Source of the DNA: a virus
Virus record (IMG/VR): IMGVR_UViG_3300009285_000883
Coordinates: 1-64,000 of that record
Length of the DNA stretch: 64,000 nucleotides
Reading direction: 5' to 3' (one strand)
The translations under genes were made by a program, and so were the position numbers. The notes beneath the pieces were generated by a model. That model did no database searches. It had not been told where the DNA came from and was given only the letters and a program-made list of their open reading frames with translations. Positions 3,721-61,899 of this stretch are shown here, one piece after another; the stretch's first letter is position 1, and the number at the start of each line of letters is the position of its first letter.

Positions 3721-3748
3721 AAAAGGCCCGCAACTTGGCGGGCCTTTC
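3721..3748. terminator. Bidirectional intrinsic terminator
   Basis: A perfect 10-bp stem AAAGGCCCGC / GCGGGCCTTT (3722-3731 with 3738-3747) has a six-base loop and is A-rich on one side and T-rich on the other. It lies between the converging recombinase gene and the minus-strand gene that ends at 3769. Confidence 0.85.
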
Positions 3749-8420: not shown

Positions 8421-8489
8421 ACACCCAAGACCCGGCAATCAGATAGTGCACCTGAGAACTGGCCGAGCTGGTAAAATAGGAAAGTTCCC

Positions 8490-8536
8490 AGTGAGGAAGG
8501 TCACTGATGCACGGTTGCCCGTGGGGACTGCCCCCC
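8490..8536 (+). ncRNA. Candidate structured RNA: three short hairpins in a row
   Basis: AGTGA/TCACT (8490-8505), CACGG/CCGTG (8510-8523) and GGGG/CCCC (8523-8534) follow each other with short loops. It could be a small RNA, leader or protein site. No promoter or terminator is clear, so the call is weak. Confidence 0.3.
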
Positions 8537-8686
8537 ATCAAGCCTATGCCTCAAACGACGCAAGCCCCTACGCTGTAACGGTTTAGTTGCGGCTAACTAT
8601 ACAGCACAATCATACACCCTGCTACGGTGTTACGAAAACCGCATGAATCAGCCCCAATCGTACTAGTTTGGGCCTTGTTTGCACTA

Positions 8687-8760: not shown

Positions 8761-9105
8761 GGAACACGTGTTCCGATTGTCTAGTCGGGCCCGTTCTGCG
8801 GTCGACCGATTGTCCCCCCTTGACTTTCGCGAGAATCGACCGAATCGACGATAACCTCTTTCGCGGGCCCGTGTTGCGTCATGCGGGTCGACCTATCGTC
8901 CCCATGTGTCCACCAAAGGGCCCGATATCGTCCAAGATTTTTTATCCTCTTCTGGGATAACGGCTTAGAATCGATTCGGCGAGAAATCCCGCAAACCGGG
9001 CTTGTGTCGGAAACTCACGACGCCGATGATAGGCGTGACGGTCGATGACGGTTTGCGATGCGAGCGGTCGACCCGCCCCGATTTCTCTCACTGGAGATTC
9101 GAACT

Positions 9106-9687
9106 ATGGCTAATGCAACTGCATCCCGCCCCGCTTGTGTCGTCCTGACAAATGTCATGTCCTGCAGTCAAGTCCGTACGTTGTTGGACAATGGCCAAAC
9201 TGACATAGACTCGTGTATCGTTTGGGCAAGTGAAACTAAACTCCCAGTTGGCGACGTAGTTACCTCGTTTGCGGGTATCTTTGATTCGGCCACTCTTGGT
9301 GCAGTGATTGGAGCCCAAACGGCATTCGCAATTGCAAGCGCCGTTAGCGCCGTCAAGCAATCAACTGCCCGAGGTATCACATGGAAAGTATCGAAGCGCG
9401 GTCTTATTAGTGTTTACGGTTTAAATGCTCGATTCCCTGTTAGCCTTTACCTTCCCCAATTGAAGCGCTTTGCTTCCAGCCTATTTGGGGTTGATGGCGA
9501 CAAGTTTGATAAGACCCCTATCGGCGTATGGGCGGCAACAAATCCCACTGAGGTATTCGCAACTGCCGATTATGAGTCCGAAGCTGATCAGACTTGGTTG
9601 CGTGATGCGCGGAGCGGGAAGTACGCCCACGTTATCGTGAAAGGCGATGGCGTTGCCGTATCGTTGTCCCTTGCCGCGCCAGAATAG
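9106..9687 (+). CDS. Hypothetical protein, 193 aa
   Basis: Unrecognised. A hydrophobic Ala-rich stretch (about residues 60-85) could be a buried helix or membrane-associated segment; the rest is soluble. The ATG at 9106 has the local leader TGGAGATT-N6-ATG, shared with the next two plus genes. Codon and base use are noticeably less GC-rich than in the late genes. It is the first gene of the rightward unit. Confidence 0.6.
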   Translation: MANATASRPACVVLTNVMSCSQVRTLLDNGQTDIDSCIVWASETKLPVGDVVTSFAGIFDSATLGAVIGAQTAFAIASAVSAVKQSTARGITWKVSKRGLISVYGLNARFPVSLYLPQLKRFASSLFGVDGDKFDKTPIGVWAATNPTEVFATADYESEADQTWLRDARSGKYAHVIVKGDGVAVSLSLAAPE

Positions 9688-9728
9688 CTTTCCCCTGCAC
9701 TCACTCTCTCACTTTGGAGATTAGATCT

Positions 9729-9959
9729 ATGTCACAACTGCTAAGCCGAGAACAAAAGTTTTCAGTCGCGTCAATGCTTGCAACGAATACCCTTCAGCCT
9801 ACGTTGAATCGACTACGTGCCGCATGCTTGGAACTTGGGATGGAAAGCGAACAATTTCTATCGTTTGCCATATTCGCCAATAAACGATATGCGAAGCGCG
9901 ATGGATACATTCCCCCTGCAGTTGTCGCGATGATAAACGACTCTGATTTGTTGCTCTAG
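9729..9959 (+). CDS. Hypothetical protein, 76 aa
   Basis: Unrecognised small helical protein. The ATG at 9729 follows TGGAGATT, the same leader as its neighbour, with TCACT words upstream. It is followed by a strong terminator. Confidence 0.6.
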   Translation: MSQLLSREQKFSVASMLATNTLQPTLNRLRAACLELGMESEQFLSFAIFANKRYAKRDGYIPPAVVAMINDSDLLL

Positions 9960-9989
9960 CTTTCCCCCACCTATCGTCAACCAATTGCG

Positions 9990-10016
9990 AAGGGCCCGAT
10001 TTTATGTCGGGCCCTT
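9990..10016. terminator. Intrinsic terminator
   Basis: A perfect 10-bp stem AAGGGCCCGA / TCGGGCCCTT (9990-9999 with 10007-10016) has a seven-base loop and is followed by a TTTGTGCGTTT stretch. It ends the unit of the first two plus genes. Confidence 0.75.
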
Positions 10017-10437
10017 TGTGCGTTTCTTGGACAATCAAAGCCCCTGCCAATTGCCACATGTGACACTTGGTTGGCTCTTTGATAACCCGGACAATTACCC
10101 CCGAACTATCGGGCCCGTTCATGCTGCGCCATCGTGGTGCGTCATGGGTCGATTCGGTCGACCGGACCTAATCGGTCGATTCGGCGAGAACCGTCCTAGC
10201 ATCGCCTAGAACGCGTTCGAATCGCTTGACCAGTCCGAACACGTGGGAACACGTGAAAACGCGACAGACGCGAAGCTAGGGCCCTTGTGTCGGACGATTC
10301 CGACTGCAGGACGATTCCGACTGCAAGTGATTCGGGCCCTTGCATGGTGGGCATGGTGGGGTGATTGCAGTGTAAGCGTAGGTACGTGTCACCCCTCACG
10401 TGCCGCCAGTTTGAGCGTAGGGGTTGGAGATTGTGTT
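10017..10437. other. Second non-coding control stretch with repeats
   Basis: It contains several TCGATTCGG and TCGACCGG words (10147-10190), the 15-mer TCGATTCGGCGAGAA (10176-10190) also found in the first control region, two near-identical GAACACGTG words (about 10224-10241), the 17-bp tandem repeat at 10292-10325 and a GCCGCCAG word at 10402. It probably holds a rightward promoter. I cannot pick one with confidence. Confidence 0.5.
10292..10325. repeat. Perfect 17-bp tandem repeat
   Basis: GGACGATTCCGACTGCA is present twice, end to end (10292-10308, 10309-10325). It is a likely protein-binding site. Confidence 0.85.
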
Positions 10438-10596
10438 ATGTCCGAGATTAGGACGCAACTAGCGTACCACACTGAGTGGTTGTCCAAGCTGCTGAGCTTT
10501 GGTTGTCCTCGCTGGAAACTAGAGCTTGTGAGTGTGGAGTTATCGGTGTGGGCCCAAGCATATGAGTGGGCCCAGTTTGATTCTGCGAATAGTTAG
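10438..10596 (+). CDS. Hypothetical protein, 52 aa
   Basis: Small helical protein, unrecognised. The ATG at 10438 is preceded by TTGGAGATTGTGTT, matching the leader pattern of the neighbouring plus genes. The open frame extends upstream through the repeats, which I do not regard as coding. Confidence 0.5.
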   Translation: MSEIRTQLAYHTEWLSKLLSFGCPRWKLELVSVELSVWAQAYEWAQFDSANS

Positions 10597-10610
10597 AGCG
10601 TAGTTCTACG

Positions 10611-10643
10611 CTGGCAGGTTAGGCACGTTGTTTAGCCTGCCAG
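10611..10643 (+). promoter_or_regulatory. Intergenic hairpin
   Basis: CTGGCAGG at 10611-10618 pairs with CCTGCCAG at 10636-10643, and the stem can extend three more pairs inward. It is one of the family of hairpins between plus-strand genes. Confidence 0.55.
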
Positions 10644-10702
10644 TGTGGGTGGGGTTGGTTTACGTGTGTTGATTGAGTGCCGCCAGACTAAGGGAGACAG
10701 AC

Positions 10703-10888
10703 ATGGACCCAGTAGCGTGCTTCAACGAATTGCATGACTTGGTTGTGTGTGGCGAGTTTACGGAGGCAAGTGAGCGATTGCTTGACCTGCGTGAATGGCT
10801 TGAGCGTGGTGGCTTTATCCCAGAAGAGATTACGCATCGAGCGTGGGCCAGCCTATTAGCAAAGGCTCTTGCTCAACTTCCTGTGTGA
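10703..10888 (+). CDS. Hypothetical protein, 61 aa
   Basis: Acidic helical protein of two to three predicted helices, unrecognised. The ATG at 10703 follows AGGGAGAC in the local leader context GCCGCCAGACTAAGGGAGAC. Confidence 0.55.
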   Translation: MDPVACFNELHDLVVCGEFTEASERLLDLREWLERGGFIPEEITHRAWASLLAKALAQLPV

Positions 10889-10906
10889 TGCAGCCAGGAC
10901 ACATTA

Positions 10907-10931
10907 CCAGCCATCTGCGTGTGGTGGCTGG
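10907..10931 (+). promoter_or_regulatory. Intergenic hairpin (TGCGTGTGG-type loop)
   Basis: CCAGCCA (10907-10913) pairs with TGGCTGG (10925-10931). The loop TCTGCGTGTGG resembles the TGCTTG-N-GG loops of the other leaders. Confidence 0.55.
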
Positions 10932-10973
10932 ACCTGTTACCTGTTTCATCACTTCTGATTTGGAGACTGTGCT

Positions 10974-11891
10974 ATGCAAACGACAACGATGAACGCAATG
11001 GTAAGTGGCTGCCTTGTGTGGTGGGAGCCTAAGGCTGCTCCTGCCGCCAGACTGCGTGAGGCATTGGAGGCAATTGGCTTGGATGCCTTTGCCCCGAACG
11101 CTGAGAGTGTGGAGGCCAGTTTGAAGCATGCGTTGTCAGATTATGGCGATGTGCTTGCCAAGCTGAACCGAGGGAGCACAACCAATAGCGATGGTGACAA
11201 GGAGAAGCGTAAGTACGAGGTTAAGAGCAGGCTCAGCGCAGCAGATGATGGTTTCGAGCTGGTGGAGGTTACACGCCGCAAGGCTGGGAATGGCTACAGA
11301 TGTGAGGTGGCTGTCAAGGTGGACAAGGTGACGGGTGGGCTTAGCGTGATTGACGGTTGGTTGTCAGGCTGGTCAGTGTGGGACTTGCAGGAACGCTTTG
11401 ATGAGTACCGCAGTATGGCGACTGGCGCCAGTGTAGGTCGCTCGCTTGTTGAGTTGACCAAACATTTGCATGGCACGTGCGTCAGGTTGGGTGGGGGTGG
11501 GAACTATTACCTGCCTGAGGATGTGGTGGCACAGTGGTCCGACGTGATTGATGCGTATGAGAAGTGCAGCCAGACACGTGTTCAGCGGATGCGTGTGGTC
11601 ATGGACGATCTGGCTGCTCGGGCTATCCGTGACGGTATCACGGCTGAGCTGCTCAAGGATGGCGCTGAGGTGGCTGATGAGCTTGCCAAGGGTGATTGCA
11701 AGGAGGAGGTGATTGAGCGTCGTAAGCTGCGGAGCCAGGAGCTGCGTAGCAAGTGTCGCCAGTATGAGGAGATTCTGCAGGACACGCTTGTGTCGGTTCA
11801 TGCTGTGCTTGATATGGCAGATCAGTGTGCGGCGGCAGCGATTGGTGTGCAGGAGTCTGGGACGGTGTTTGACGAGTCGTTGTTTGCTTGA
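10974..11891 (+). CDS. DUF6744-like protein, 305 aa
   Basis: The protein is helical with a central GGGGNYYLPE motif (about residue 173-182) after a TCVRLGG strand. That recalls the GGVYYVP signature of DUF6744-type phage proteins, which occur next to AAA ATPases. It is followed 97 bp downstream by a MoxR-like ATPase and then a metallopeptidase-VWA protein, so the three may work as one complex. The start follows TTTGGAGACTGTGCT. The family call is from memory of the motif and is moderate. Confidence 0.5.
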   Translation: MQTTTMNAMVSGCLVWWEPKAAPAARLREALEAIGLDAFAPNAESVEASLKHALSDYGDVLAKLNRGSTTNSDGDKEKRKYEVKSRLSAADDGFELVEVTRRKAGNGYRCEVAVKVDKVTGGLSVIDGWLSGWSVWDLQERFDEYRSMATGASVGRSLVELTKHLHGTCVRLGGGGNYYLPEDVVAQWSDVIDAYEKCSQTRVQRMRVVMDDLAARAIRDGITAELLKDGAEVADELAKGDCKEEVIERRKLRSQELRSKCRQYEEILQDTLVSVHAVLDMADQCAAAAIGVQESGTVFDESLFA

Positions 11892-11915
11892 TGGTGCCTG
11901 ACTGAGCCAAGCGAA

Positions 11916-11943
11916 CGCTGCCTGTGCTTGAAGGCAGGCAGCG
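11916..11943 (+). promoter_or_regulatory. Intergenic hairpin (TGCTTGAAGG loop)
   Basis: A perfect 9-bp stem CGCTGCCTG / CAGGCAGCG at 11916-11924 and 11935-11943 is followed by a T-rich stretch and then the GGAGACT ribosome site of the AAA gene. It could be an intergenic terminator/attenuator or an mRNA-stabilising structure. Confidence 0.6.
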
Positions 11944-11988
11944 CTGCTTGTTTCTGTTTGGTTCTGTTTTCCTTCACTGAGGAGACTG

Positions 11989-13119
11989 ATGATGCGTTAC
12001 GTGAATTGGGGCGCAGCGATTGCGCTACAGACAACCCCGTTTGGTGGGCCCGTGCCTTGCGTGGTAGGCGCGCCGGGTCAGGCTAAGACGGCGTATGGCA
12101 GAGCTGTGTCTGCCGCCAGTGGTCGACGTTTCATCCAGATGATTCTCAGGCAGATGATGCCTGAGGATATCAAGGGTGTGCCATCACCTGATGACATTGT
12201 GATTGATGGCAAGGTGTACCGTGGCTGCCGTTACCTGCTCAATGAGGACATGCTGGCAGCCAAGCACACGCCCAGTTTTGTGCTGATTGACGAGTTCAAT
12301 CAGTCTGGTGACGACGTGTTGGGTGCAGCGCAGGAGTGGATTAACAGCCCGCCCGAGACTGCCTGGGTGATGGCTGCCATGAACCCTGTGGAGATGAGCA
12401 CTGCGGGACGTGAGTTAGCGCCGCCAGTGGTCAACCGCATGTGCATCCTGCCTTGGGAGCGGTTGATTGTCACACGCCGTGCAGGCTGGCTGCGTGGGTT
12501 TAAGAACTACCCATGCCCTGAGTTCCCTATCGTGCCGCTTGATTTCCAAGACACGATGGGCCCTGCTTGGGGCCAAGTCATGTGTGACTTCGAGGATGAC
12601 AACACCGAGCTGTTTGGGGACGACGCATTCCCCAAGGATATCAACCTTGCGTGCAATCCTTGGCCGAGCGAGCGATCGTGGGAACACGTTGGAATCTTGA
12701 TGGCAGCCTGTGATGCGGTGGGGGCTGGCAACGACGTGAAGGCTCAGCTTGTGTCAGGATGTGTGGGTGAAGCGGCCATGCGTAAGTTCATGCTGCATCT
12801 CACGCATCGGGGGCTGCCAGACTTCGAGACGCTGTTGGCGATGCCGCACACGCTGAAGCTGGATGTGACACGTTACGATCTGTCGCGTGCGATTCTGACA
12901 GGCGTGATTGGCCGGGTGAACGCTGAGCAGACTCCCCAACGCTGGGAGGCTGCGTGTGACGTGATTGAGAAGGCGAGTGAGCAGTCAATGGAGACTGCCG
13001 CCACGGTGTACGGTGGGTTGATGAAGGCGAAGCCGCAAGGTTACATGCCACGCTCACGCAATGGGCAGTGGAAGGATCTGCAAGGGCTCATGCTGAATGA
13101 CGCTCACAAGCAGGCGTGA
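11989..13119 (+). CDS. MoxR-type AAA+ ATPase
   Basis: The 376-residue protein has Walker A GAPGQAKT (27-34), Walker B FVLIDEFN (97-104), a sensor-1 region WVMAAMNP (126-133) and a VVNR segment (about 147-150) like the arginine-finger region. This is the MoxR/RavA-like AAA+ layout. MoxR ATPases remodel or activate partners carrying VWA domains, and the next gene encodes exactly such a protein, so a chaperone-like pair is likely. It starts at ATG 11989 or 11992 after GGAGACTG. There is no obvious C-terminal helical lid beyond about 370. Confidence 0.85.
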   Translation: MMRYVNWGAAIALQTTPFGGPVPCVVGAPGQAKTAYGRAVSAASGRRFIQMILRQMMPEDIKGVPSPDDIVIDGKVYRGCRYLLNEDMLAAKHTPSFVLIDEFNQSGDDVLGAAQEWINSPPETAWVMAAMNPVEMSTAGRELAPPVVNRMCILPWERLIVTRRAGWLRGFKNYPCPEFPIVPLDFQDTMGPAWGQVMCDFEDDNTELFGDDAFPKDINLACNPWPSERSWEHVGILMAACDAVGAGNDVKAQLVSGCVGEAAMRKFMLHLTHRGLPDFETLLAMPHTLKLDVTRYDLSRAILTGVIGRVNAEQTPQRWEAACDVIEKASEQSMETAATVYGGLMKAKPQGYMPRSRNGQWKDLQGLMLNDAHKQA

Positions 13120-13141
13120 TTTCACGAGCGACGGCCCGACA

Positions 13142-13168
13142 CTCAGCCTGTGCTTGGGGCAGGCTGAG
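13142..13168 (+). promoter_or_regulatory. Intergenic hairpin (TGCTTGGGG loop)
   Basis: A perfect 9-bp stem CTCAGCCTG / CAGGCTGAG at 13142-13150 and 13160-13168, then a T-rich stretch and GTGGAGGCTC ahead of the next start. Same layout as at 11916. Confidence 0.6.
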
Positions 13169-13208
13169 ACTCGGTTTGTTTCTCACTCACTCAGTGGAGG
13201 CTCTGATT

Positions 13209-14768
13209 ATGGGCAAGCTCAAAGTACCGATTGAGCTATCGGAGGCACGTTTAGCAGCGTGTCGAGTGTGGCCTGAAGCGTCACACGTGATTATGAGCAT
13301 GGTTCCGGTTGAATCACCGGGGCTGGCGCAGCGGGCAGCAGGCTCGATCTGCGTGGACCAGTATTGGCGACTGTACTTTGACCCCCAAGCATTCTTGGAG
13401 CGGTCAGTGGTGCAGCGTATCGCCACGATATTGCATGAGACGGCGCATCTGCTTGGGCGGCATCATGTGCGTGCCAAGCGGTACGTGGCGCCAGACGATC
13501 GGCAGGCATGGTTTGATTGGAACTGTGCTTGTGACATGGCAGTGTGGGGCCTGATTAAGGCTGCTGGGATGCCTGTGCCTGAGACGGCTGTGACGGCTGA
13601 GCGGGCAGGCTTCTCTGAGAATCTGTCTGCGGAGCAGTATTTCAGGCTGATCCGAGACAAGCGTGAGCAGGAGCGTCAGCAGGCTCAGGAGCAGGCTGAG
13701 CAGGATGAACAAGAGAACCAAGGAGACAGCGATGGTAACGACAGCCAAGAGCCTGACGATGGAGATGGAGCTGGAGATTCTCAAGCGTCAGATGAAGACA
13801 GTGATCAGTCAGATGATCAGTCTGAATCAGACAGTCAGGGAGATCAGGCTGGAGAGTCAGGAGAAGGCCAGTCTGACGACGGATCAGATTCGGACGCTGG
13901 ATCGCAGGATGACGCTGACGAGTCAGGCAGTGACAGCGATGACGGATCAGATGGTGGAAACGCTGGAATGCCTCAGCCAGGAGCCGGGGTAGAGGGTGGG
14001 TCGTGCGCTGATGGGGTGGCCCGAGACTGGGAGCTGCCTGCGCCTCAGGGTGATGACAGCGCCGCCAGTCAGGCTGACAAGCAGGAGGACACGCCTCCTG
14101 TGGTCGAGCAGTGGAAGCAGGAGATTCTGCTGCGTAACGCTGCCGATCGGTTGGCTGCCAGTGGTAAGGGCAGTGGCTCAGGCATGTGGCGTGAGATGGT
14201 CGAGCACTATCAGGAGCCTAAGCTGGACCCGCGCAGGCTGTTGCAGAAGACGCTGAGCAGGCAGCTTGGCAACTTGCAGGCTGGGTGTGGCCGGTTCACG
14301 TATCGTCGACCAGCGCGCCGCCCTTCTTTGGGTGGCACACTCAGGCCGCGCAGCTTTCAGCCTGTGCCAAGGATTCTGGTCATCATCGACACGTCAGGCA
14401 GCATGAGCAGCGAGGAGATGCGTCTGGGCGTGGGGCTCGTGAGCAAGTGCATCAACGCGCTCAGGCTGCAAGACGGTGTGCGTGTCATGGCTGGCGATGA
14501 CATGGCGCAGTGGGACGAGCAATGCTTCAACCCGCGTCACATCAGCCTGATCGGCGGGGGTGGGACGGACATGGCTTGTCTGATCGAAGCTGCCGCCAGC
14601 AAGCCTCAGCGTGAGCGTCCCGAGCTGATTGTGGTTGTTACGGACGGAGAGACAGGGTGGCCGAAAACACGTGTTGCGATGCCTGTGGTGGTGGCGCTGA
14701 CACGTGATTCGGAGTATGCCCGATTCTTCCCGGTGCCTGACTGGATGGAGAGTGTCAAACTTTACTAA
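13209..14768 (+). CDS. DUF2201-type metallopeptidase-like / VWA protein
   Basis: The 519-residue protein has an N-terminal metallopeptidase-like domain with HETAH (76-80) and H85-H86. A very acidic Ser/Asp/Gln-rich linker spans about 155-260. The C-terminal VWA-like domain has a MIDAS pattern D394-T-SGS, T453-D454 and D479. This matches the two-part DUF2201 family, partners of MoxR ATPases. The ATG at 13209 follows GTGGAGGCTCTGATT; the longer frame starts inside the previous gene and is rejected. The acidic linker is unusually long and made of short tandem codon repeats. Confidence 0.85.
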   Translation: MGKLKVPIELSEARLAACRVWPEASHVIMSMVPVESPGLAQRAAGSICVDQYWRLYFDPQAFLERSVVQRIATILHETAHLLGRHHVRAKRYVAPDDRQAWFDWNCACDMAVWGLIKAAGMPVPETAVTAERAGFSENLSAEQYFRLIRDKREQERQQAQEQAEQDEQENQGDSDGNDSQEPDDGDGAGDSQASDEDSDQSDDQSESDSQGDQAGESGEGQSDDGSDSDAGSQDDADESGSDSDDGSDGGNAGMPQPGAGVEGGSCADGVARDWELPAPQGDDSAASQADKQEDTPPVVEQWKQEILLRNAADRLAASGKGSGSGMWREMVEHYQEPKLDPRRLLQKTLSRQLGNLQAGCGRFTYRRPARRPSLGGTLRPRSFQPVPRILVIIDTSGSMSSEEMRLGVGLVSKCINALRLQDGVRVMAGDDMAQWDEQCFNPRHISLIGGGGTDMACLIEAAASKPQRERPELIVVVTDGETGWPKTRVAMPVVVALTRDSEYARFFPVPDWMESVKLY

Positions 14769-14783
14769 GAACAGGGTAATACG

Positions 14784-14948
14784 ATGGACAGATACTTTGT
14801 CGAGCATACAGAAGCAGACCAAGATGATCAGACGCTCTACACGTTCATGTGCGAGGCTGGTGATCCAGACCATGCAGAACGTCAATGCAAAGCAGCGCAC
14901 CCAGGGTGCAACGTGACCAGGGTGTACTTGGCGTCGAGTGTTTTCTGA
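14784..14948 (+). CDS. Hypothetical protein, 54 aa
   Basis: Small acidic protein (MDRYFVEHTEADQ start, three Cys residues), 15 bp after the VWA gene and probably translated from the same mRNA. The upstream AGGGTAATACG is a weak site. Unrecognised. Confidence 0.5.
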   Translation: MDRYFVEHTEADQDDQTLYTFMCEAGDPDHAERQCKAAHPGCNVTRVYLASSVF

Positions 14949-14963
14949 GCCGGGCCCCTGCTA

Positions 14964-14988
14964 CCCGCCAGTGCTTGTGGCTGGCGGG
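14964..14988 (+). promoter_or_regulatory. Intergenic hairpin (TGCTTGTGG loop)
   Basis: An 8-bp stem CCCGCCAG / CTGGCGGG (14964-14971, 14981-14988) precedes TTTTGGAGACTGAATC and a start codon. Member of the leader family. Confidence 0.6.
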
Positions 14989-15032
14989 GTGTTGGTGTTC
15001 GTTTCACTGGTCACTGTTTTGGAGACTGAATC

Positions 15033-15371
15033 ATGGGTTACGAGATGAAGCGTGCGCGTCTTAACTGCGATGCCAAGGCGATTGCTGAGGGGTTGGTCAA
15101 GCTGATGGAGGAAGAGGACCCCAACAACGTGGCGTTGATTCGATTCGGGATGCTGCCAGCGCAGTGGATGGACCGCGTTAAGAAGTCATGCCAGGAGCTG
15201 CTTGTTGACAGGCTGCACGTGAATCCTCGCGCCGATCAGGAGGTAGTCACGTTCGCCGATAAGGACGAGCGTGGCGAGTGGATCGTAGTAGTGCATCCCA
15301 AGAAGATTGTGTCGGAGATGGTGCACGATATCAGTCTGGCGTTGTATGGGTGCGTTGAGATGGTCGTTTAG
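15033..15371 (+). CDS. Hypothetical protein, 112 aa
   Basis: Unrecognised mixed alpha/beta protein. The ATG at 15033 follows the leader TTTTGGAGACTGAATC, identical over its core to that of the gene at 17493. Confidence 0.6.
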   Translation: MGYEMKRARLNCDAKAIAEGLVKLMEEEDPNNVALIRFGMLPAQWMDRVKKSCQELLVDRLHVNPRADQEVVTFADKDERGEWIVVVHPKKIVSEMVHDISLALYGCVEMVV

Positions 15372-15384
15372 TAGGGGAATGAGC

Positions 15385-15528
15385 ATGGATATGACACTGA
15401 AACAAGCTGTGACGTTAGTCCTAGAAATGGCACGAGACTGTGCCGACACAGGAGTCGAGGAACAAGCTATCGATCAGGTTGGAGAGTTCTTTAAGGACTA
15501 CTTCCGCAACTACCCTGATCACGATTGA
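15385..15528 (+). CDS. Hypothetical protein, 47 aa
   Basis: Short acidic helical protein. The ATG at 15385 (or 15379) follows GGGG at a usable spacing. Its end overlaps the palindrome ACACGTGT by one base. Confidence 0.5.
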   Translation: MDMTLKQAVTLVLEMARDCADTGVEEQAIDQVGEFFKDYFRNYPDHD

Positions 15529-15544
15529 CACGTGTTCCGATCAA

Positions 15545-15610
15545 CCAGCCGTGCCGCCACAATGGCAACCAAGCTCATTGAGCAACGGGACGACAGTGGC
15601 ACACGGCTGG
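15545..15610 (+). promoter_or_regulatory. Long intergenic stem-loop
   Basis: CCAGCCGTG (15545-15553) pairs with CACGGCTGG (15602-15610). The stem continues inside as GCCAC (15556-15560) with GTGGC (15596-15600). It lies before the leader AAGGAGACTGTT of the next gene. Confidence 0.55.
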
Positions 15611-15651
15611 CTATCGGGTTTCGTGTTTTCACTCTCACTAAGGAGACTGTT

Positions 15652-15948
15652 ATGTCACACACACCGGGACCGTGGTTCAACGACGAGTATTTTGTCAGGG
15701 TCATCAAGCCCGAGCGTGAGTACCTTGGAGCAGGAGCTGCAGAGACAATCTGCGAGATGCAGTCGTCTGTCAGTCCTGAGGAGACTTGTTACAACCAGAT
15801 TTTAATTGCCGCAGCGCCAGACCTACTCGAAGCTGTGCAGGAGTGCATGCGACGATTTAAGCACTTCGAGTTCTACGAGGATGAGGCATCGTCGATCTGC
15901 AAGATACTGCGCCCTGTCATCGCTAAGGCGACAGGGGGTGCAGTATGA
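15652..15948 (+). CDS. HTPGPW-type conserved phage protein, 98 aa
   Basis: It begins MSHTPGPW and contains NQILIAAAPDLLEAV in the middle, the two hallmarks of a very common family of small phage proteins of unknown function. The ATG at 15652 follows CACTAAGGAGACTGTT. The downstream gene overlaps by 4 bp. Confidence 0.75.
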   Translation: MSHTPGPWFNDEYFVRVIKPEREYLGAGAAETICEMQSSVSPEETCYNQILIAAAPDLLEAVQECMRRFKHFEFYEDEASSICKILRPVIAKATGGAV

Positions 15949-16355
15949 GCGCCAAGACAGTGTTTGCCTGCACGCACATTGATAAAGACGCGACCGTGGA
16001 CAACTGGGAAACTGGTTGTCGCATCGACCGAACATGTGTGATGAGCGAATCAGTCAACTACACGGCTGACACGCTGGAGAACCTCGTCAAGAAGGTGTGC
16101 GACGTGTACGGGCTGGATTTCCCGACTCACGTGTCGCACGACGAGGTGTACGATGCGAACGACAGCATCAACGTGATTCAATTCGACAGACTGGAGACCG
16201 CCAGCGGCGACGTTCCTACCGAAGAGGAAATCGCTCGGTGGAAGGATGGTCGGCTTGAGTTGTACGTCGCAGATTACACACTGCACGTTGAGAAGCGGCG
16301 AGTCGAGAACGTGACAATCAACGACGTGGAGGGGCTGCCATGCGACGTTGCCTGA
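15945..16355 (+). CDS. Hypothetical protein, 136 aa
   Basis: Unrecognised acidic protein with paired Cys residues in the first third. ATGA overlap with the previous gene; it also overlaps the start of a small exported protein by 16 bp. Confidence 0.55.
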   Translation: MSAKTVFACTHIDKDATVDNWETGCRIDRTCVMSESVNYTADTLENLVKKVCDVYGLDFPTHVSHDEVYDANDSINVIQFDRLETASGDVPTEEEIARWKDGRLELYVADYTLHVEKRRVENVTINDVEGLPCDVA

Positions 16356-16501
16356 TCCTGCTGGCCTGCCTGTTGTGTTGTGCTGGGTGCATTCATGGGC
16401 GGACGACGCTCTGCGCCAGCACGACGATTGACGACGTGGACTACCGCTTTGAGTGGAGTACGGATGATGTCATACGACACGATGTGCCGCCGCGCCGCTA
16501 A
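16340..16501 (+). CDS. Small exported, lipoprotein-like peptide, 53 aa
   Basis: MRRC, then a hydrophobic run (LILLACLLCCAGC), then a short soluble part. This is a signal peptide with a cysteine at the likely cleavage site, close to but not a perfect lipobox. Size and type would fit an outer-spanin-like or immunity lipoprotein, but no lysis partner lies next to it, so the role is open. Confidence 0.45.
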   Translation: MRRCLILLACLLCCAGCIHGRTTLCASTTIDDVDYRFEWSTDDVIRHDVPPRR

Positions 16502-16754
16502 GATTGCGGCCAAGTACAACTGGCCTGCTGAGGCTGAGCAGTTGGCGGAAGGACACGTGCCGCCAGGGTTTGGCCGGGAGGTGGGCCAGACGATTGCCTT
16601 GTTCAAGCGGGACTTCCCGTTTGGCCGGGCCGAGCGTAAGCGTGACGACGAGATCGCCCGTGAGTTGTCGGAGCTGCGCATGTACTGTGCGCACCTCAGC
16701 TTGTGGGAGTTGATGGGTTCGGAAAAGGTACTGCAGCGAGGGGACATGGCGTAA
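16464..16754 (+). CDS. Hypothetical protein, 96 aa
   Basis: Basic helical protein; two start codons in tandem (16464, 16467) follow TGGAG. It overlaps the exported peptide by 38 bp in another frame. Unrecognised. Confidence 0.5.
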   Translation: MMSYDTMCRRAAKIAAKYNWPAEAEQLAEGHVPPGFGREVGQTIALFKRDFPFGRAERKRDDEIARELSELRMYCAHLSLWELMGSEKVLQRGDMA

Positions 16755-16771
16755 GGAGTAGCCCCGGCGAA

Positions 16772-16796
16772 CCAGCACGTGCTCTTGGCGTGCTGG
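16772..16796 (+). promoter_or_regulatory. Intergenic hairpin (TGCTCTTGG loop)
   Basis: CCAGCACG / CGTGCTGG, 8 bp perfect (16772-16779, 16789-16796), before CTTGGAGGACTTGGT and a start codon. Confidence 0.6.
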
Positions 16797-16846
16797 CTGC
16801 CAGCATTACTTTGGGACCGCCAGACTGAACACTTGGAGGACTTGGT

Positions 16847-17146
16847 ATGAACTGCACGCGATGTGACGGAACTGGATTCCTGAACTTGCATCAGGTGGAC
16901 AAGGAGACTTTGGCCCGCTTTGATGCGGAGGGCGATGCGGACGTGATCCTTAAATGGATCGCTGACAGGGCCGAGGTGCAAGCAAACGGCTGCTACTGCG
17001 CCGCTACTCACCCACCTTGTCTGTATTGCGAGTCGTTTCACGACGTGTCGGTGTGTGACTGCTGTGGGGATGGCGAGGACTGGTACGGGGAGCCTGGACG
17101 GCACGACCTGAGCGACACGACAGTCCCGTTCCCGCAGTGCTATTGA
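16847..17146 (+). CDS. DnaJ-like zinc-finger protein, 99 aa
   Basis: It starts CTRCDGTGF, a CxxCxGxGx element as in DnaJ zinc domains and many small phage proteins. Further pairs are CYC, CLYC and CDCCGDGEDWYG. It probably binds two zinc ions and acts in protein or nucleic-acid binding. The start follows TTGGAGGACTTGGT. Confidence 0.65.
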   Translation: MNCTRCDGTGFLNLHQVDKETLARFDAEGDADVILKWIADRAEVQANGCYCAATHPPCLYCESFHDVSVCDCCGDGEDWYGEPGRHDLSDTTVPFPQCY

Positions 17147-17171
17147 TGACCGCCAGAAACACGTGTTTCAA

Positions 17172-17220
17172 CTGCCGCGTGGCAGGGGTATATTGCTTCG
17201 TGGTCGCAGCGTGCGGCCAC
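17172..17220 (+). promoter_or_regulatory. Two intergenic hairpins
   Basis: CTGCC-GCGT-GGCAG (17172-17185) is followed by GTGGTCGCA / TGCGGCCAC (17200-17208, 17212-17220; one G-T pair). They precede the leader TTAGGGGAGACTTTCA. Confidence 0.55.
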
Positions 17221-17245
17221 ATCACTTTCTTAGGGGAGACTTTCA

Positions 17246-17455
17246 ATGTCTAAATTCCATGAACTGACGTTTGAGACGCCTGAGCGGAACAAGGGCCAGA
17301 TCGTCACGTACAGTTACGCCACGACTCCGCGCGGCGCAGTCATCGAATGCCGCCACGACGGGTGCGACAACTCGGTCCACTACTACTGGCGGAAGTCGGG
17401 GAACCGATTGACAGAGTCGGAGTTGGCACGATACGGACTGGTCGAGCGCGGTTAG
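17246..17455 (+). CDS. Hypothetical protein, 69 aa
   Basis: Beta-rich small protein with ECRHDGC in the middle, a possible partial zinc site. The start follows GGGGAGACTTTCA. Unrecognised. Confidence 0.55.
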   Translation: MSKFHELTFETPERNKGQIVTYSYATTPRGAVIECRHDGCDNSVHYYWRKSGNRLTESELARYGLVERG

Positions 17456-17492
17456 GCTACCTACTTACCACTTTCTTTGGGGAGACTGAATC

Positions 17493-18377
17493 ATGTCCAA
17501 GACGATTCGCAACATCAATGACCGCTGGGGAGATCCCGTTACGTTCACGGGCGAGGACGTAGCCGCTTGTATCGCCGAAATGCTGGAGTGCATCGCTAAC
17601 TGCGGCTACGAGGGAGGGGAACTGCGAGAGGGCGTAGACTACGAGGTAGTTCACGACGACACCGACACCACTCGCCTCGGCGATCTTGGAACCGCCCACG
17701 TCTGGTTCATCTCAGTCGGGTGTCCGGCTGGATGCGACCTGATCGCTGATGATAGCGAGTCTCCGGTGCCTGATGCGTGGGCTGACCTCAACGGCACGAT
17801 TGCTGAAAATAAGTGGACGTGGGATGGCGAGGGGAATCCTACTGACGCGAACGCAAATACAGTCACTAACATCGTGGCGTTTGTGCCGGGGTCGTACACA
17901 CTTGCGATGCGGTGCGAGGACGGCGGCACGTGCGATGCCTTCTTCGATGACATTCCAACGGTGGACGAGATCCGGGAGGAGTTGGAGGAGTGGATTCAGG
18001 GAGGGGCATGGGGAGACAACGGTGCCAGCGTGTCTTGCACATACGACATTCTCGACAGCTCTAGCAATGTCATCGACAGCGGTGGCATGACTGTCGAAAT
18101 TGAGCCTAATCACGAGGCCCTTATTACCGAGGCCGTTGGCCGATATAACCTCGGTACGATCTGCGGAACGTCCCCCGACGACCATGACTGGACCAGTGAG
18201 GGCGAGGGAGGGTGTGACGAGAATCCGGGTGTGTGGTCCACCGGAGGCACGTCGATGGCGTTTAAGTCGCACTGCCGCAAATGCGGACTCAAGCGTACCG
18301 AGCAATCCACGGGCTCGCAGCGCAACCCTGGCGAGCATGACACCGTGGAGTACGAGATTCCGGAGTCTCTCTCCTAG
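17493..18377 (+). CDS. Hypothetical Cys-containing protein, 294 aa
   Basis: Unrecognised acidic protein. It has Cys pairs near the C-terminus (SHCRKCGLKR) and several CxxxC spacings upstream. Residues 150-210 look like a repeated beta unit. The start follows TTGGGGAGACTGAATC. The last base of its TAG stop is the first base of stem I of the hammerhead ribozyme that follows. Confidence 0.6.
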   Translation: MSKTIRNINDRWGDPVTFTGEDVAACIAEMLECIANCGYEGGELREGVDYEVVHDDTDTTRLGDLGTAHVWFISVGCPAGCDLIADDSESPVPDAWADLNGTIAENKWTWDGEGNPTDANANTVTNIVAFVPGSYTLAMRCEDGGTCDAFFDDIPTVDEIREELEEWIQGGAWGDNGASVSCTYDILDSSSNVIDSGGMTVEIEPNHEALITEAVGRYNLGTICGTSPDDHDWTSEGEGGCDENPGVWSTGGTSMAFKSHCRKCGLKRTEQSTGSQRNPGEHDTVEYEIPESLS

Positions 18378-18429
18378 CCTCACTGACGAGTCCTGAGGGA
18401 CGAAACGCGTGGAAACACGCGTCTGGGGC
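18377..18429 (+). ncRNA. Hammerhead ribozyme, type I
   Basis: All core elements are present in order. Stem I 5' strand GCCUCA is 18377-18382 and CUGACGA is 18383-18389. Stem II is GUCC-UGAG-GGAC (18390-18401), then GAA (18402-18404). Stem III is ACGCGUG-GAAA-CACGCGU (18405-18422) and the cleavage-site C is 18423. The stem I 3' strand UGGGGC (18424-18429) pairs with GCCUCA with one G-U. Cleavage after 18423 would leave a 28-base leader with a free 5'-OH upstream of the next ATG, keeping its AAGGAGACT site. The structure is read directly from sequence; activity is not shown. Confidence 0.9.
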
Positions 18430-18451
18430 CACAACACAAGGAGACTTTAAG

Positions 18452-19172: not shown

Positions 19173-19452
19173 GCGTAAGTACAAACCGAAGCCGCGCAGC
19201 ACGTGTGATTTCGTATTCAGGAACGACTTTCACAACACGAGTTACACGATGCGAACGAGGTACTACAAGCCGCTCACGCCGGATCAGATGAGGATGTGCC
19301 GCAAGACACTGTGCGGTGTTGCAGACTGCAAGTGCGGCGGGAAGTTGGGCGAGAGGGGGCCTCAAGACGCGGTGATTGTGGTCGGCTGGGATTTGACGGG
19401 CCGAGAGGTTGTGACGTTGGAACCCCTTCGCGGATCGTTCATGCAGCGGTAG
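19159..19452 (+). CDS. Basic protein, 97 aa
   Basis: The N-terminus is strongly basic (MARAKRKYKPKPRS) and the centre has CRKTLCG and CKCGG, so nucleic-acid binding is plausible. The ATG at 19159 follows GAGGGAG and overlaps the previous gene. It is the last gene of the rightward unit, ended by a structured terminator. Confidence 0.55.
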   Translation: MARAKRKYKPKPRSTCDFVFRNDFHNTSYTMRTRYYKPLTPDQMRMCRKTLCGVADCKCGGKLGERGPQDAVIVVGWDLTGREVVTLEPLRGSFMQR

Positions 19453-19467
19453 AATGGGAAACGTTGA

Positions 19468-19564
19468 GCCCACCTGGGTAGCCGGAGTAGTGACCCGGCG
19501 ACATGCTTGCACGGGTAAACTTTCGAGTCTCCACCGTGCATGTGTGGTCCAGGTGGGCTTTTTT
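19468..19564 (+). terminator. Structured terminator / possible small RNA
   Basis: An outer 10-bp helix GCCCACCTGG / CCAGGTGGGC (19468-19477, 19549-19558) followed by six T encloses two inner hairpins: GCCGG/CCGGC (19481-19499) and GCACGG/CCGTGC (19509-19539). A three-way junction closed by a terminator stem is unusual for a plain terminator. Confidence 0.7.
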
Positions 19565-19575
19565 GTTGCGTCTCG

Positions 19576-32204: not shown

Positions 32205-33137
32205 TCACTCCTCCTCTTCGGCAAGAGCTTCCTCCTGCACTTCATCACGCGACCTGCGTTTGACCTTCTCACCTTCCTTGAGGTCGCGCAACGACTTCCC
32301 CGTCATCGGCCAAGGCCAATTGGGAATCTCGATGAAGTGACGGTGATCTCCGGGGCAGTGCTCGAACACGTACGGAACTGGCGGGTCTTCACCAAAGAAG
32401 TCGTAGTACATCACGTGATGCAAGTGAGACAGGAAGATCTTCACTGCAAAGCGGCGCGCACGTGCATGTAGATGGCCTGGAGGAAGCGTACCGTCCTTGT
32501 AGTGCTTGTAAGCAACTGTCGTCTTACCGACCTTCTCAGCACGCTCAGCGGCCAACGTCTTGAACTTCCCCTCACCGCTGGCAGCAATCTCCGCATCCTT
32601 GCGCTGACGATAGAGCTGCCCGTACACAGCCCCATCACGGTTCTGCGTCTTGCAAAAACTTTCTCCGCATTTAAAAGCGCATAAACAGCGAAGGAAAGCA
32701 TTCCACGGACGCGGCTTTCCCTTCTCCCAAACCATCGTCGGGTCCAACCCGGCGAACCTCCAGAAGTGTCCAGCCGTCTTGCACTTGCTCACATCCAAGT
32801 GAGAGAGAAGACCAGCAGAGATTACCGGGCCGATGCCAACCTGAGACTGCATCCACTGCCCCACCGAATACTCGCTCGCAAACGCGCCAAGAGCACGCTT
32901 GATCGCGTTTTCCACACGCGTCATTTCGTCGTTGACCCACATCAAAACGCGGCCCGGCTCACCTGCGCCAAGCGAGCGCAACTGGTTCGCAGTCGAAATC
33001 CTGTAGGCTTGGATACTGTAAAAGTTATCGACGAGATAACGAGCCTGCGCGCGATCCATGAGCCTCGACGCGGCCATGAGATCCTTTGTGAGTTTACGTG
33101 CGATTTCGATAGGTGTGTCGTAATCACTTCTGTCCAT
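32205..33137 (-). CDS. IS110-transposase C-terminal-like phage protein
   Basis: The 310-residue protein has an N-terminal helical region (1-95), then GIGPVISAGLLSHL (101-114, a helix-hairpin-helix), then HFWRFAGLDP (124-133) and RPWNAFLR (143-150). A helical tail contains HLHARARRFAVK. This order matches the C-terminal (Tnp_20-type) domain of IS110 transposases. The N-terminal DEDD nuclease domain is absent, so it cannot be a complete transposase. Similar stand-alone proteins occur in other phages. It lies between repeat arrays 2 and 3. Confidence 0.7.
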   Translation of the reverse strand: MDRSDYDTPIEIARKLTKDLMAASRLMDRAQARYLVDNFYSIQAYRISTANQLRSLGAGEPGRVLMWVNDEMTRVENAIKRALGAFASEYSVGQWMQSQVGIGPVISAGLLSHLDVSKCKTAGHFWRFAGLDPTMVWEKGKPRPWNAFLRCLCAFKCGESFCKTQNRDGAVYGQLYRQRKDAEIAASGEGKFKTLAAERAEKVGKTTVAYKHYKDGTLPPGHLHARARRFAVKIFLSHLHHVMYYDFFGEDPPVPYVFEHCPGDHRHFIEIPNWPWPMTGKSLRDLKEGEKVKRRSRDEVQEEALAEEEE

Positions 33138-37475: not shown

Positions 37476-37568
37476 TCACCTCAGGTTGTCCGTGAGGCGC
37501 ATCAATCCAACCAGCAACAACAGCGCGAGCCCGCCGAATAGAATCTCAAGCCACGTCACTTCGACCAT
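37476..37568 (-). CDS. Small membrane peptide, 30 aa
   Basis: MVEVTW, then a transmembrane segment (LEILFGGLALLLLVGLM), then a short basic tail. It overlaps the end of csrA by 23 bp in another frame. AAGGAGG lies some ten bases upstream. Function unknown. Confidence 0.4.
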   Translation of the reverse strand: MVEVTWLEILFGGLALLLLVGLMRLTDNLR

Positions 37569-37749
37569 CGCACTCACCTCCTTGCGAACGTGACTTCTTG
37601 ATCTCGATCTCAAGGCGGTTGACCTGGATGTCTTTGGGTGCGTCAATACCGAGACGCACCTTATCCGCCTTGATCTCCACGACCGTGATCGTGATCAGCC
37701 CTTCAGCAATCACGATCTTCTCGCCTATCTTGCGAGCTAGAACGAGCAT
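37546..37749 (-). CDS. csrA: CsrA-type RNA-binding regulator
   Basis: The 67-residue protein begins MLVLARKIGEKIVIAEG and carries VRLGIDAPKDIQVNRLEI, the standard CsrA layout. R6 and the R of VNR (R44 position) that contact RNA are present. CsrA dimers bind GGA in mRNA leaders and control translation or stability. The C-terminal tail (about 55-67) is longer and unrelated. The ATG follows GGGAGG. A phage copy is rare, and it may act on phage or host messages. Confidence 0.92.
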   Translation of the reverse strand: MLVLARKIGEKIVIAEGLITITVVEIKADKVRLGIDAPKDIQVNRLEIEIKKSRSQGGECDGRSDVA

Positions 37750-60424: not shown

Positions 60425-61899
60425 TTCACCACCTTCATAATGCGGTGATCCATGCGGCCCATGAAGCGTGGCACAAACGAAAACGAGTGATCTCCAAATA
60501 CGTGTGACTGAGCGTCCCATTCAGCCAGTGTTCTGCTTGTTCCCTCGTCATTCCAGTTGCTGCCAAACGCCGTTGTTTTGGAGTAGTAGTTGTTCCCGTA
60601 GAAGTTGATCGTTTGATTTACATCAACCACCTCTACGAGATCATCCGGCACAGTCTGGCCAGGATAGATATAGACCGCGTTTCCAGCGAAGATGCAGCCC
60701 GTTGAATGGACCAGCGCATCAGACTGGACGTAGAGGAAACGCGGAGACGATGCACTGCTGATAATGTAGGTGTTGCCGGTAACGACACAATCAGCCGCAC
60801 CCTTCAAGTGATGAGCGGCCGTTCCGGTGAGGAACTCGGACACGTTGTGCGACTGAACGCCTCGCACCGTATCTTTGTGGATGTACCCAATGACAGCATA
60901 TCGGACTCGGTTGTTCCATACTTCTATGTCATCGCCATCGCGCGCCATGATTCCGTGCAGCGATGTCGGTGCGGCCGGGCCGCGCACGTCGTTGTTGTAG
61001 ATCAAGCCCGCGTCAGGGCCTGCACCGTACGTGTCGTGCCCAATACCGAGGATGATTCCCGCTGGCGAGTTGCAGCGACCCAGGTTGTCGTAGATGGCCG
61101 GAGCGGCGACGGCAGTGATGTTCGGATTGGCGATCGTGTAGAGCGAGCCGGATGCTGAGGCGTGCGTCGTCAAGTCCAGATTGCACCCGTGAATCTTCGC
61201 CGTGCCAATGTCGATCAGCAGGACACCATTGCAGTACCCGCTGTTGGTGGACGATACGATAGTCCCAGTGACTCCCGCAATGTCTGCCTCGGTGTTGGCG
61301 TGGTTGCCCTCAATAATCACGCCACCCCGGTTCGCGGCAATCGCACCCGTCATGGTCAGGTCGAGGCCATCCACAACAATCGAATCGCCGTCCGCACTGT
61401 TGTAAATGTACAGCCCAGCCCCAGTGCTGGCGCCGCCGTCCTGCATGTCGCAGTCCGTCATTCCAAGCAGAGCGCCGCTGACCGAGTAGATGCCGAAGAC
61501 AGCAAACTTGATTCCAACTCTCGTGAGCGTTATCTGCCCAGCCTTGAATGTGCTGTCGATCCGCAGCGCGGCGGATGTTGAGGCTAGGCCATTAAAGATC
61601 ACATCCGTCGCGGTCAGTGTTTTACCGGCCGCCCAAGTGATGCCAGAGGCACCGGCACCAGCTGCCAGCAGCGTGATTGTGGGTCGCCCGCTGGCGGTCG
61701 GATCTTTGAGGATGGTGATATTGTTGTCGATGTCGAATCGAGCATTGCATACTACGTCACCGTTGACGTAGACGGTATCGTCGCCGGACCACGTAAAACC
61801 TGCCCCGTTCACCGGGTTGAGCGAGGCCCACGGGGTGCCTTCCGAGCCATCGCCCGTCGTGTCATTGCCCGTTGCCGCATTCACATAGTACGTCGCCAT
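60421..61899 (-). CDS. Right-handed beta-helix tail spike-like protein, 492 aa
   Basis: Begins MATYYVNAATGNDTTGDGSEGTPWASL, the common start of pectate-lyase-like beta-helix proteins (YYV.. TGxD..GDG.xxxPW; only the pattern is meant). Repeating strand-turn units follow with Asn ladders (DCDMQDGGAS, NNDVRGPAAP). It probably binds or degrades surface polysaccharide. No clear catalytic set is visible. Confidence 0.65.
   Translation of the reverse strand: MATYYVNAATGNDTTGDGSEGTPWASLNPVNGAGFTWSGDDTVYVNGDVVCNARFDIDNNITILKDPTASGRPTITLLAAGAGASGITWAAGKTLTATDVIFNGLASTSAALRIDSTFKAGQITLTRVGIKFAVFGIYSVSGALLGMTDCDMQDGGASTGAGLYIYNSADGDSIVVDGLDLTMTGAIAANRGGVIIEGNHANTEADIAGVTGTIVSSTNSGYCNGVLLIDIGTAKIHGCNLDLTTHASASGSLYTIANPNITAVAAPAIYDNLGRCNSPAGIILGIGHDTYGAGPDAGLIYNNDVRGPAAPTSLHGIMARDGDDIEVWNNRVRYAVIGYIHKDTVRGVQSHNVSEFLTGTAAHHLKGAADCVVTGNTYIISSASSPRFLYVQSDALVHSTGCIFAGNAVYIYPGQTVPDDLVEVVDVNQTINFYGNNYYSKTTAFGSNWNDEGTSRTLAEWDAQSHVFGDHSFSFVPRFMGRMDHRIMKVVK

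Follow-up and report, generated by a model that had tools for sequence, protein, structure and literature searches.

Introduction

In bacteriophage T7 the RNase III signal R1.1 is about 60 nt long, carries an asymmetric 4/5 internal loop and has been proven to be cleaved (PMC6121014). The haloviruses HF1 and HF2 possess a hammerhead ribozyme 13 nt before the start of the helicase gene (PMC3088659). In cluster K mycobacteriophages a short conserved start-associated sequence (SAS), which extends beyond the ribosome site, is found at many non-structural gene starts, about half of which also have an inverted repeat upstream; the repeats of these extended forms (ESAS) keep one sequence, have poor hairpin support and contain a SigA-like promoter (PMC3203893, PMC11373665). 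The present study deals with the leaders that separate the genes of one operon in a virus, IMG/VR record IMGVR_UViG_3300009285_000883, of which bases 1 to 64,000 were analysed (the window; the record has 71,638 bases in all). The operon lies on the plus strand between 9.1 and 19.4 kb of the window and has 20 plus-strand starts. Comparison with a related phage indicates that the hairpins of these leaders are maintained as RNA helices. We suggest, with a probability of about 0.48, that the leaders are intercistronic modules of a polycistronic message, in which a processing or stability hairpin (RNase III-like or protective) is joined to a start-associated ribosome site. To our knowledge, the balancing of protein output from one long phage message in planctomycetes has hardly been studied.

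Results

The sole close relative found in the viral collection is IMGVR_UViG_3300025073_000048 (G001), a virus contig of 69,402 bases; its MoxR-like ATPase is 86% identical to that of the window, and the piece of it with the operon is locus L003. A strong hairpin occupies eight stop-to-start gaps of the window and a complete hammerhead core a ninth. On the plus strand the hairpins precede the gene at 10703 (10607–10647, core 10611–10643, a long near-perfect stem of 11 bp, or about 19 bp with wobbles), the DUF6744 gene at 10974 (10893–10945, upper stem 10907–10931, from the fold and the comparison with G001), the gene of the MoxR-like AAA ATPase at 11989 (11907–11953, hairpin 11916–11943, loop TGCTTGAAGG), that of the metallopeptidase-VWA protein at 13209 (13130–13182, hairpin 13142–13168, internal loop CA/AC, loop TGCTTGGGG), and the genes at 15033 (14951–15002, hairpin 14964–14988, loop TGCTTGTGG), 15652 (15529–15625, where 15545–15610 closes a complex core with 9 bp), 16847 (16763–16804, hairpin 16772–16796, internal loop GAA/CT, loop TGCTCTTGG) and 17246 (17200–17220, 9 bp, loop GCG, in a block absent from G001). 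In hairpin 11916 a lower stem CAAGC/GCTTG and an internal loop GAA/CT are followed by the upper stem; the internal loops of the leaders measure 2x2, 3x2 or 3x3. In all six leaders that can be compared, the upper stem ends 40–50 nt upstream of the ATG, and 18–30 nt separate the hairpin from the Shine-Dalgarno (SD) sequence. An earlier note on this DNA, made from the sequence alone, had described hairpins with related loops in at least six gaps, and all the loops that it named are present. A hairpin of at least 8 bp occurs in 25 of 400 random 95-nt pieces of the genome. With a crude gene caller, such hairpins appeared in 7 of the 10 operon gaps that the window and G001 have together, against 3 of 23 gaps elsewhere. 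The loop pattern TGCT...GG is common to 4 of the 64 plus-strand hairpins of at least 8 bp, about 0.02 being expected from letter frequencies.

Seven of the leader hairpins are kept in G001. Their domains were folded from the window alone and the pairs were projected onto the alignments of the two sequences. As compared to G001, 94 pairs are unchanged, 10 have changed on one side and 13 on both sides with pairing maintained, 7 are broken and 9 are gapped. In 20,000 random-substitution simulations 32 broken pairs (minimum 18) and 2.8 double changes (maximum 9) were expected, and sliding the partner columns by 1–3 positions broke 70–94 pairs; these figures come from two genomes, with substitutions simulated as independent and domain boundaries set manually. 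In G001 the lower stem of 11916 has become CGAGT/ACTCG around an unchanged internal loop. Four pairs of the 10608 stem are rewritten on both sides and one is broken, the loop being ACG/ACGT in the window and G001. The 15545 leader keeps 23 of 23 named pairs, six of them changed on both sides, with 28–33% paired in slid controls. Mean folding z-scores are −2.1 for the leaders of the window, −3.3 for those of G001 and −0.2 for coding controls. Since the stems covary, they constitute real RNA structure, and the comparative record demonstrates selection of the hairpins as RNA helices. The check that the earlier note had set, covariation of the stems in relatives, therefore came out in favour of structure, and its fallback, plain short terminators, lost ground as covarying stems speak for real RNA structure instead. 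Moreover, the arms differ among the copies of one genome with pairing held, which makes a repeated protein-binding DNA palindrome unlikely.

With the MoxR-like AAA ATPase gene (11992–13119, plus strand) as the query, remoter versions of the operon (AAA ATPase, DUF6744-like, MoxR, metallopeptidase-VWA; 40–42% identity) were found in one viral contig (L005/L028) as well as in genome bins of planctomycetes, namely L029 and L030 (Pirellulaceae), L031 (Candidatus Anammoximicrobium), and L032 and L033 (Planctomycetota). Because remoter versions sit in planctomycete bins, the virus of the window probably has a planctomycete host. Carriers of the MoxR gene numbered 4 in a family search of 241 genomes and 4 in an order sample of 396 (2 of these weak matches), and a wider search of about 1,000 planctomycete genomes added few more; this rarity fits a mobile element. 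Before MoxR, the loci L028, L032, L029 and L030 read GTCA-CA-[ CCGGCCACT TGCG AGTGGTCGG ]-AC-TGAT or TTCA-CA-[ CCGGCCGCT TGCG AGCGGTCGG ]-AC-TGAA, a build of 9-bp upper stem, CA/AC internal loop and 4-bp lower stem, then a 1x1 mismatch, and two pairs differ among them in a compensatory manner (G-U to U-A, A-U to G-C). The same CA/AC internal loop lies between a 4-bp lower stem and the upper stem of leader 13142 in both the window and G001. A comparable hairpin precedes VWA in L029, L030 and L033, and one of 14 bp or longer precedes MoxR in L031. Slot and layout are thus common to the phages and the planctomycete elements, and the sequence is not shared.

The second part of the leader is the start-associated ribosome site. 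The exact heptamer GGAGACT is found at seven plus-strand starts (10962–10968, 11981, 15021, 15642, 17235, 17481 and 18440); GGAGATT precedes the starts at 9093, 9716 and 10426, and GGAGGCT occurs at 13196, GGAGGACT at 16835 and GGAGACA at 10693. In all, about 12 of the 20 plus-strand starts have the heptamer or a near variant. CACT lies 0–8 bases before GGAG at 10 of 13 motif-bearing starts, and the distance from SD to ATG is mostly 3–5 bases. Such a leader is missing at some seven starts (14784, 15386, 15945, 16340, 16470, 18909 and 19159), mostly of genes that overlap or lie close together. Of the 78 listed minus-strand starts that have a ribosome-site-like word, only about one, that of the gene at 33137, has GGAGACT, which indicates that the heptamer belongs largely to this operon. 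The earlier note was right in reporting GGAGACT at seven or more starts, with variants at others, and TCACT words before the ribosome site; it went too far in giving such a leader to nearly every plus-strand gene, and its gap of 4–8 bases to the ATG has to be shortened as above. The layout of ribosome sites at starts plus covarying hairpins is conserved, as the alignments establish.

In the ninth gap a type I hammerhead ribozyme is predicted in the leader of gene 18452 (18377–18429, plus strand; RF00163, 31.3 bits, E 1.5e-4). The score is just under the RF00163 gathering score of 34, and all core letters are present by eye; the CUGANGA...GAAA...UH core and three stems are there, with stem I open. 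It begins on the final base of the stop codon upstream, and cleavage is predicted between 18423 and 18424, 28 nt upstream of the ATG, so that the predicted 28-nt leader retains GGAGACT. The ribozyme thus occupies the stop-to-SD slot that is held by hairpins at the neighbouring genes. Judged by this position, the proposal of the earlier note that a hammerhead arose from one leader, or took its place, is plausible, but the block is absent from G001. In the leader at 15529–15625 the closing stems, which covary, enclose a conserved core, RATGRCAACCA-hairpin-AYGGGACGACA; the G001 counterpart of this leader is L003 13695–13792. An Rfam scan of this leader gave no credible match, microRNA matches being far below gathering, and a scan of the window, G001 and the planctomycete loci gave none for the hairpin leaders. 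Fourteen other pattern-scan matches to the 15545 core were rejected as they were without closing stems, chance-like and in coding sequence. We regard 15529–15625 as a candidate new structured RNA.

The loops behave differently from the stems. Between the window and G001 the loop of leader 14966 is identical and that of 16776 differs in two letters; the loop of 13142 changes from TGCTTGGGG to TACCCCTGA, and that of 11916 is replaced in G001 by about 9 further base pairs, the stem being kept in both cases. Two of four loops are rewritten while the helices stay, which argues against a regulator that reads the loop and for double-stranded RNA recognition or a purely structural role. A covariance model (R1) was built from five hairpins, with 11916 outside the training set. 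Searched against 394 kb, it found four leaders in the window and three in G001, nothing else falling below E 0.1, and it recovered 11916 at E 0.023. The TGCTTG loop family is confined to the two phages in this search. An exact-loop pattern scan of viral contigs matched G001 only, and a comparable leader family was not found in the DnaB-related viruses L006–L022.

A number of other elements accompany these operons. The operon ends (19450–19565; L003 15490–15605) in a long structure resembling a terminator, in which GAGCCCRCYTGG and a complementary arm, followed by TTTTTT, flank the conserved inner part GTAGCCGGAGTAGTGACCCGG. About 600 bases upstream of the first gene (8465–8545; L003 6715–6800), conserved non-coding TAAAATAGGAAARTTCCCRGTGAGGAAGGT is followed by GC-rich arms and is a possible structured RNA. 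A conserved imperfect inverted repeat, CAAAGCCCCTGCCAATTGCCA...TTGGTTGGMTCTTTGA (10024–10101; L003 8015–8094), lies in the non-coding gap 9960–10437, behind a hairpin that resembles a terminator. The palindrome ACACGTGT has 11 copies in the window (about 1 expected; for example 8764, 15528 and 17159) and 8 in G001, and ACGTGTTCCGA, which opens the leader at 15529, is seen again at 8766. TGCCGCCAG occurs on the operon strand only (window 7/0, G001 6/0, L028 11/0, L031 5/0, L032 7/0), with sites in the window at 10402, 10679, 11043, 12112, 12420, 14061, 14592, 16559 and 19582, and forms an array in L005/L028 (L005 about 13890–13460, minus strand); a longer pattern starting GTGCCGCCAG showed no enrichment in planctomycete chromosomes. 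The planctomycete elements have a second recurrent leader family, TTTCCGGTTTTC...CTTCGACTTGTAG, often directly after stop codons (L028 4101, 5763, 6641, 7785 and 9679; L032 7403, 8197, 9908 and 11093). It lies downstream of a gene whose product looks sigma-factor-like by eye (no Pfam hit), and is possibly a promoter for that product, or a hairpin.

Discussion

The leaders of this operon may be read as modules that process or stabilize one long message. Each starts soon after the upstream stop with a hairpin in two tiers, a lower stem and an upper stem of 9–10 bp parted by a small internal loop, which gives a near-continuous helix of about 16–25 bp; some 20–30 mostly unpaired pyrimidine-rich bases with TCACT follow, and then the GGAGACT-type site and the ATG. 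The helix would be a mark for cutting or protection, recognized by RNase III or another double-strand endonuclease of the host, or serving as a barrier to exonucleases, and every gene would obtain a short clean leader with an open ribosome site. The hammerhead, lying in the same slot, would achieve an equivalent cut on its own and leave the 28-nt leader. RNA processing or protection, as proposed by the earlier note, remains the best reading now that the stems are seen to covary. Several observations weigh against it. The internal loops are small (2x2, 3x2), unlike the 4/5 loop of T7 R1.1; z-scores of single leaders in the window can be modest (16776, −0.3; 17147, −0.6; 10907, −1.2); the covariation rests on two viral genomes and four planctomycete loci, the latter two near-identical pairs; and several leaders stand at gene-swap boundaries, where recombination could explain part of the conservation.

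As the hairpins lie directly 3' of stop codons, they could be terminators or attenuators without a U-tract that cut read-through gene by gene. Rho-independent terminators without poly-U tails have been reported in the phiC31 early region (Ingham 1995, as cited in PMC8355165), and clusters of hairpins are argued to be able to terminate (PMC8355165). This explanation is nevertheless rather unlikely, because termination would not require the internal loop and lower stem to covary. Of the leader hairpins, 11916 alone satisfies a lax U-tail rule, and that marginally; sites resembling terminators are about as frequent as in shuffled sequence (9 vs 7.8), and hairpins with proper A/T tails do exist in the window, at 3722–3747 and near 19546. 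Sigma-70-like promoters were not found in 8.4–19.7 kb (0 vs 4.4 expected), and the short stretch from hairpin to SD leaves no room for one; with U-tracts and such promoters both absent, plain terminators are improbable. It is also doubtful that operon translation is coordinated in trans by a factor bound to the leaders, be it the phage CsrA, some other RNA-binding protein or a small RNA. The loop TGCTTGNGG is repeated in three to four leaders, the conservation of GGAGACT exceeds anti-SD complementarity, and both viruses encode CsrA. The candidate partner in the window is 67 aa long (37546–37749, minus strand; Pfam E 6e-19); both proteins are above the Pfam cut-off, that of the window being below the NCBIfam equivalog cut-off, and the RNA-binding-surface residues R6 and R44 appear to be retained. 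Other CsrA genes lie at G001 61642–61785 (minus strand) and, in DnaB-related viruses, at L022 5365–5505 and L008 12498–12638. On the RNA side, GGA shows no enrichment in leader sequence other than the SD (7 vs 9.9 in the window, 3 vs 7.4 in G001), and it is missing from the simple hairpin loops, the usual place of its exposure in CsrA sites; by these counts and the listed loops, the leaders do not match the canonical CsrA hairpin (ANGGA, typically loop-exposed). CsrA may act at the ribosome site itself. The CsrA idea of the earlier note thus keeps its protein and loses its expected sites, and its common regulator is weakened by the rewritten loops at 13142 and 11916 and by a loop model that finds none beyond the two phages.

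The leaders could alternatively work mainly at the DNA level, as recombination joints between gene cassettes or as promoters. Over 58 nt, leader 14966 is 95% identical between the window and G001 (a BLAST match of 65 nt gives 98%), with unrelated genes upstream and genes of 59% identity downstream, and leader 16776 precedes different genes in the two phages. The ESAS of cluster K mycobacteriophages were likewise first seen as start-linked inverted repeats and later read as promoters (PMC3203893, PMC11373665). The position at cassette borders fits punctuation elements open to whatever gene is inserted, and homologous joints as well. Compensatory stem changes are unexpected for homology joints or promoters and make the leaders more than joints; further, their arms differ among copies, sigma-70 matches are lacking and the CACT–GGAG spacing varies from 0 to 8, so that we consider a DNA-level role quite improbable. 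CTCACTAAGGAGA resembles the T3 promoter, and a T7-type promoter (CACTA-AGGGAGA) was rejected on account of this spacing and the absence of a polymerase match; the search for a single-subunit RNA polymerase gave no PF00940 match in the phage, with control genomes equally silent. It is distinctly unlikely, finally, that the leaders form a modular RNA platform, in which a fixed connector carries exchangeable cores: plain helices, the hammerhead and the small structured RNA at 15529–15625, which would then be a ribozyme or a sensor of a ligand or protein.

An operon with a covarying helix at most gene borders and one predicted self-cleaving ribozyme offers a testable case of natural phage hammerheads as message-processing sites interchangeable with nuclease-cut hairpins. 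Among known systems, the phiC31 terminators, as cited in PMC8355165, are likewise phage hairpins without a U tail; the present leaders, unlike those of phiC31, come with no evidence of termination and have a lower stem, an internal loop and a conserved distance to the next start. The HF1/HF2 hammerheads also lie just upstream of a viral start codon (PMC3088659), whereas the one described here takes a slot held by plain hairpins at neighbouring genes. The closest known arrangement is SAS/ESAS; there too many start codons have a repeat no more than a few bases away. The comparison fails on sequence, promoter content and RNA covariation: the 13-bp SAS GGGATAGGAGCCC was not found in the window, where the motif is GGAGACT/GGAGATT/GGAGGCT, and instead of a constant promoter-bearing repeat there are arms that vary from copy to copy and covary, with no sigma-70 match. 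In T7, R1.1 is an irregular intercistronic hairpin with an internal loop in a polycistronic phage message (PMC6121014), as the leaders appear to be. A lower stem, an internal loop and an upper stem between genes are found in both, the 4/5 internal loop in T7 only, and by mechanism the T7 RNase III signals would be the nearest known system.

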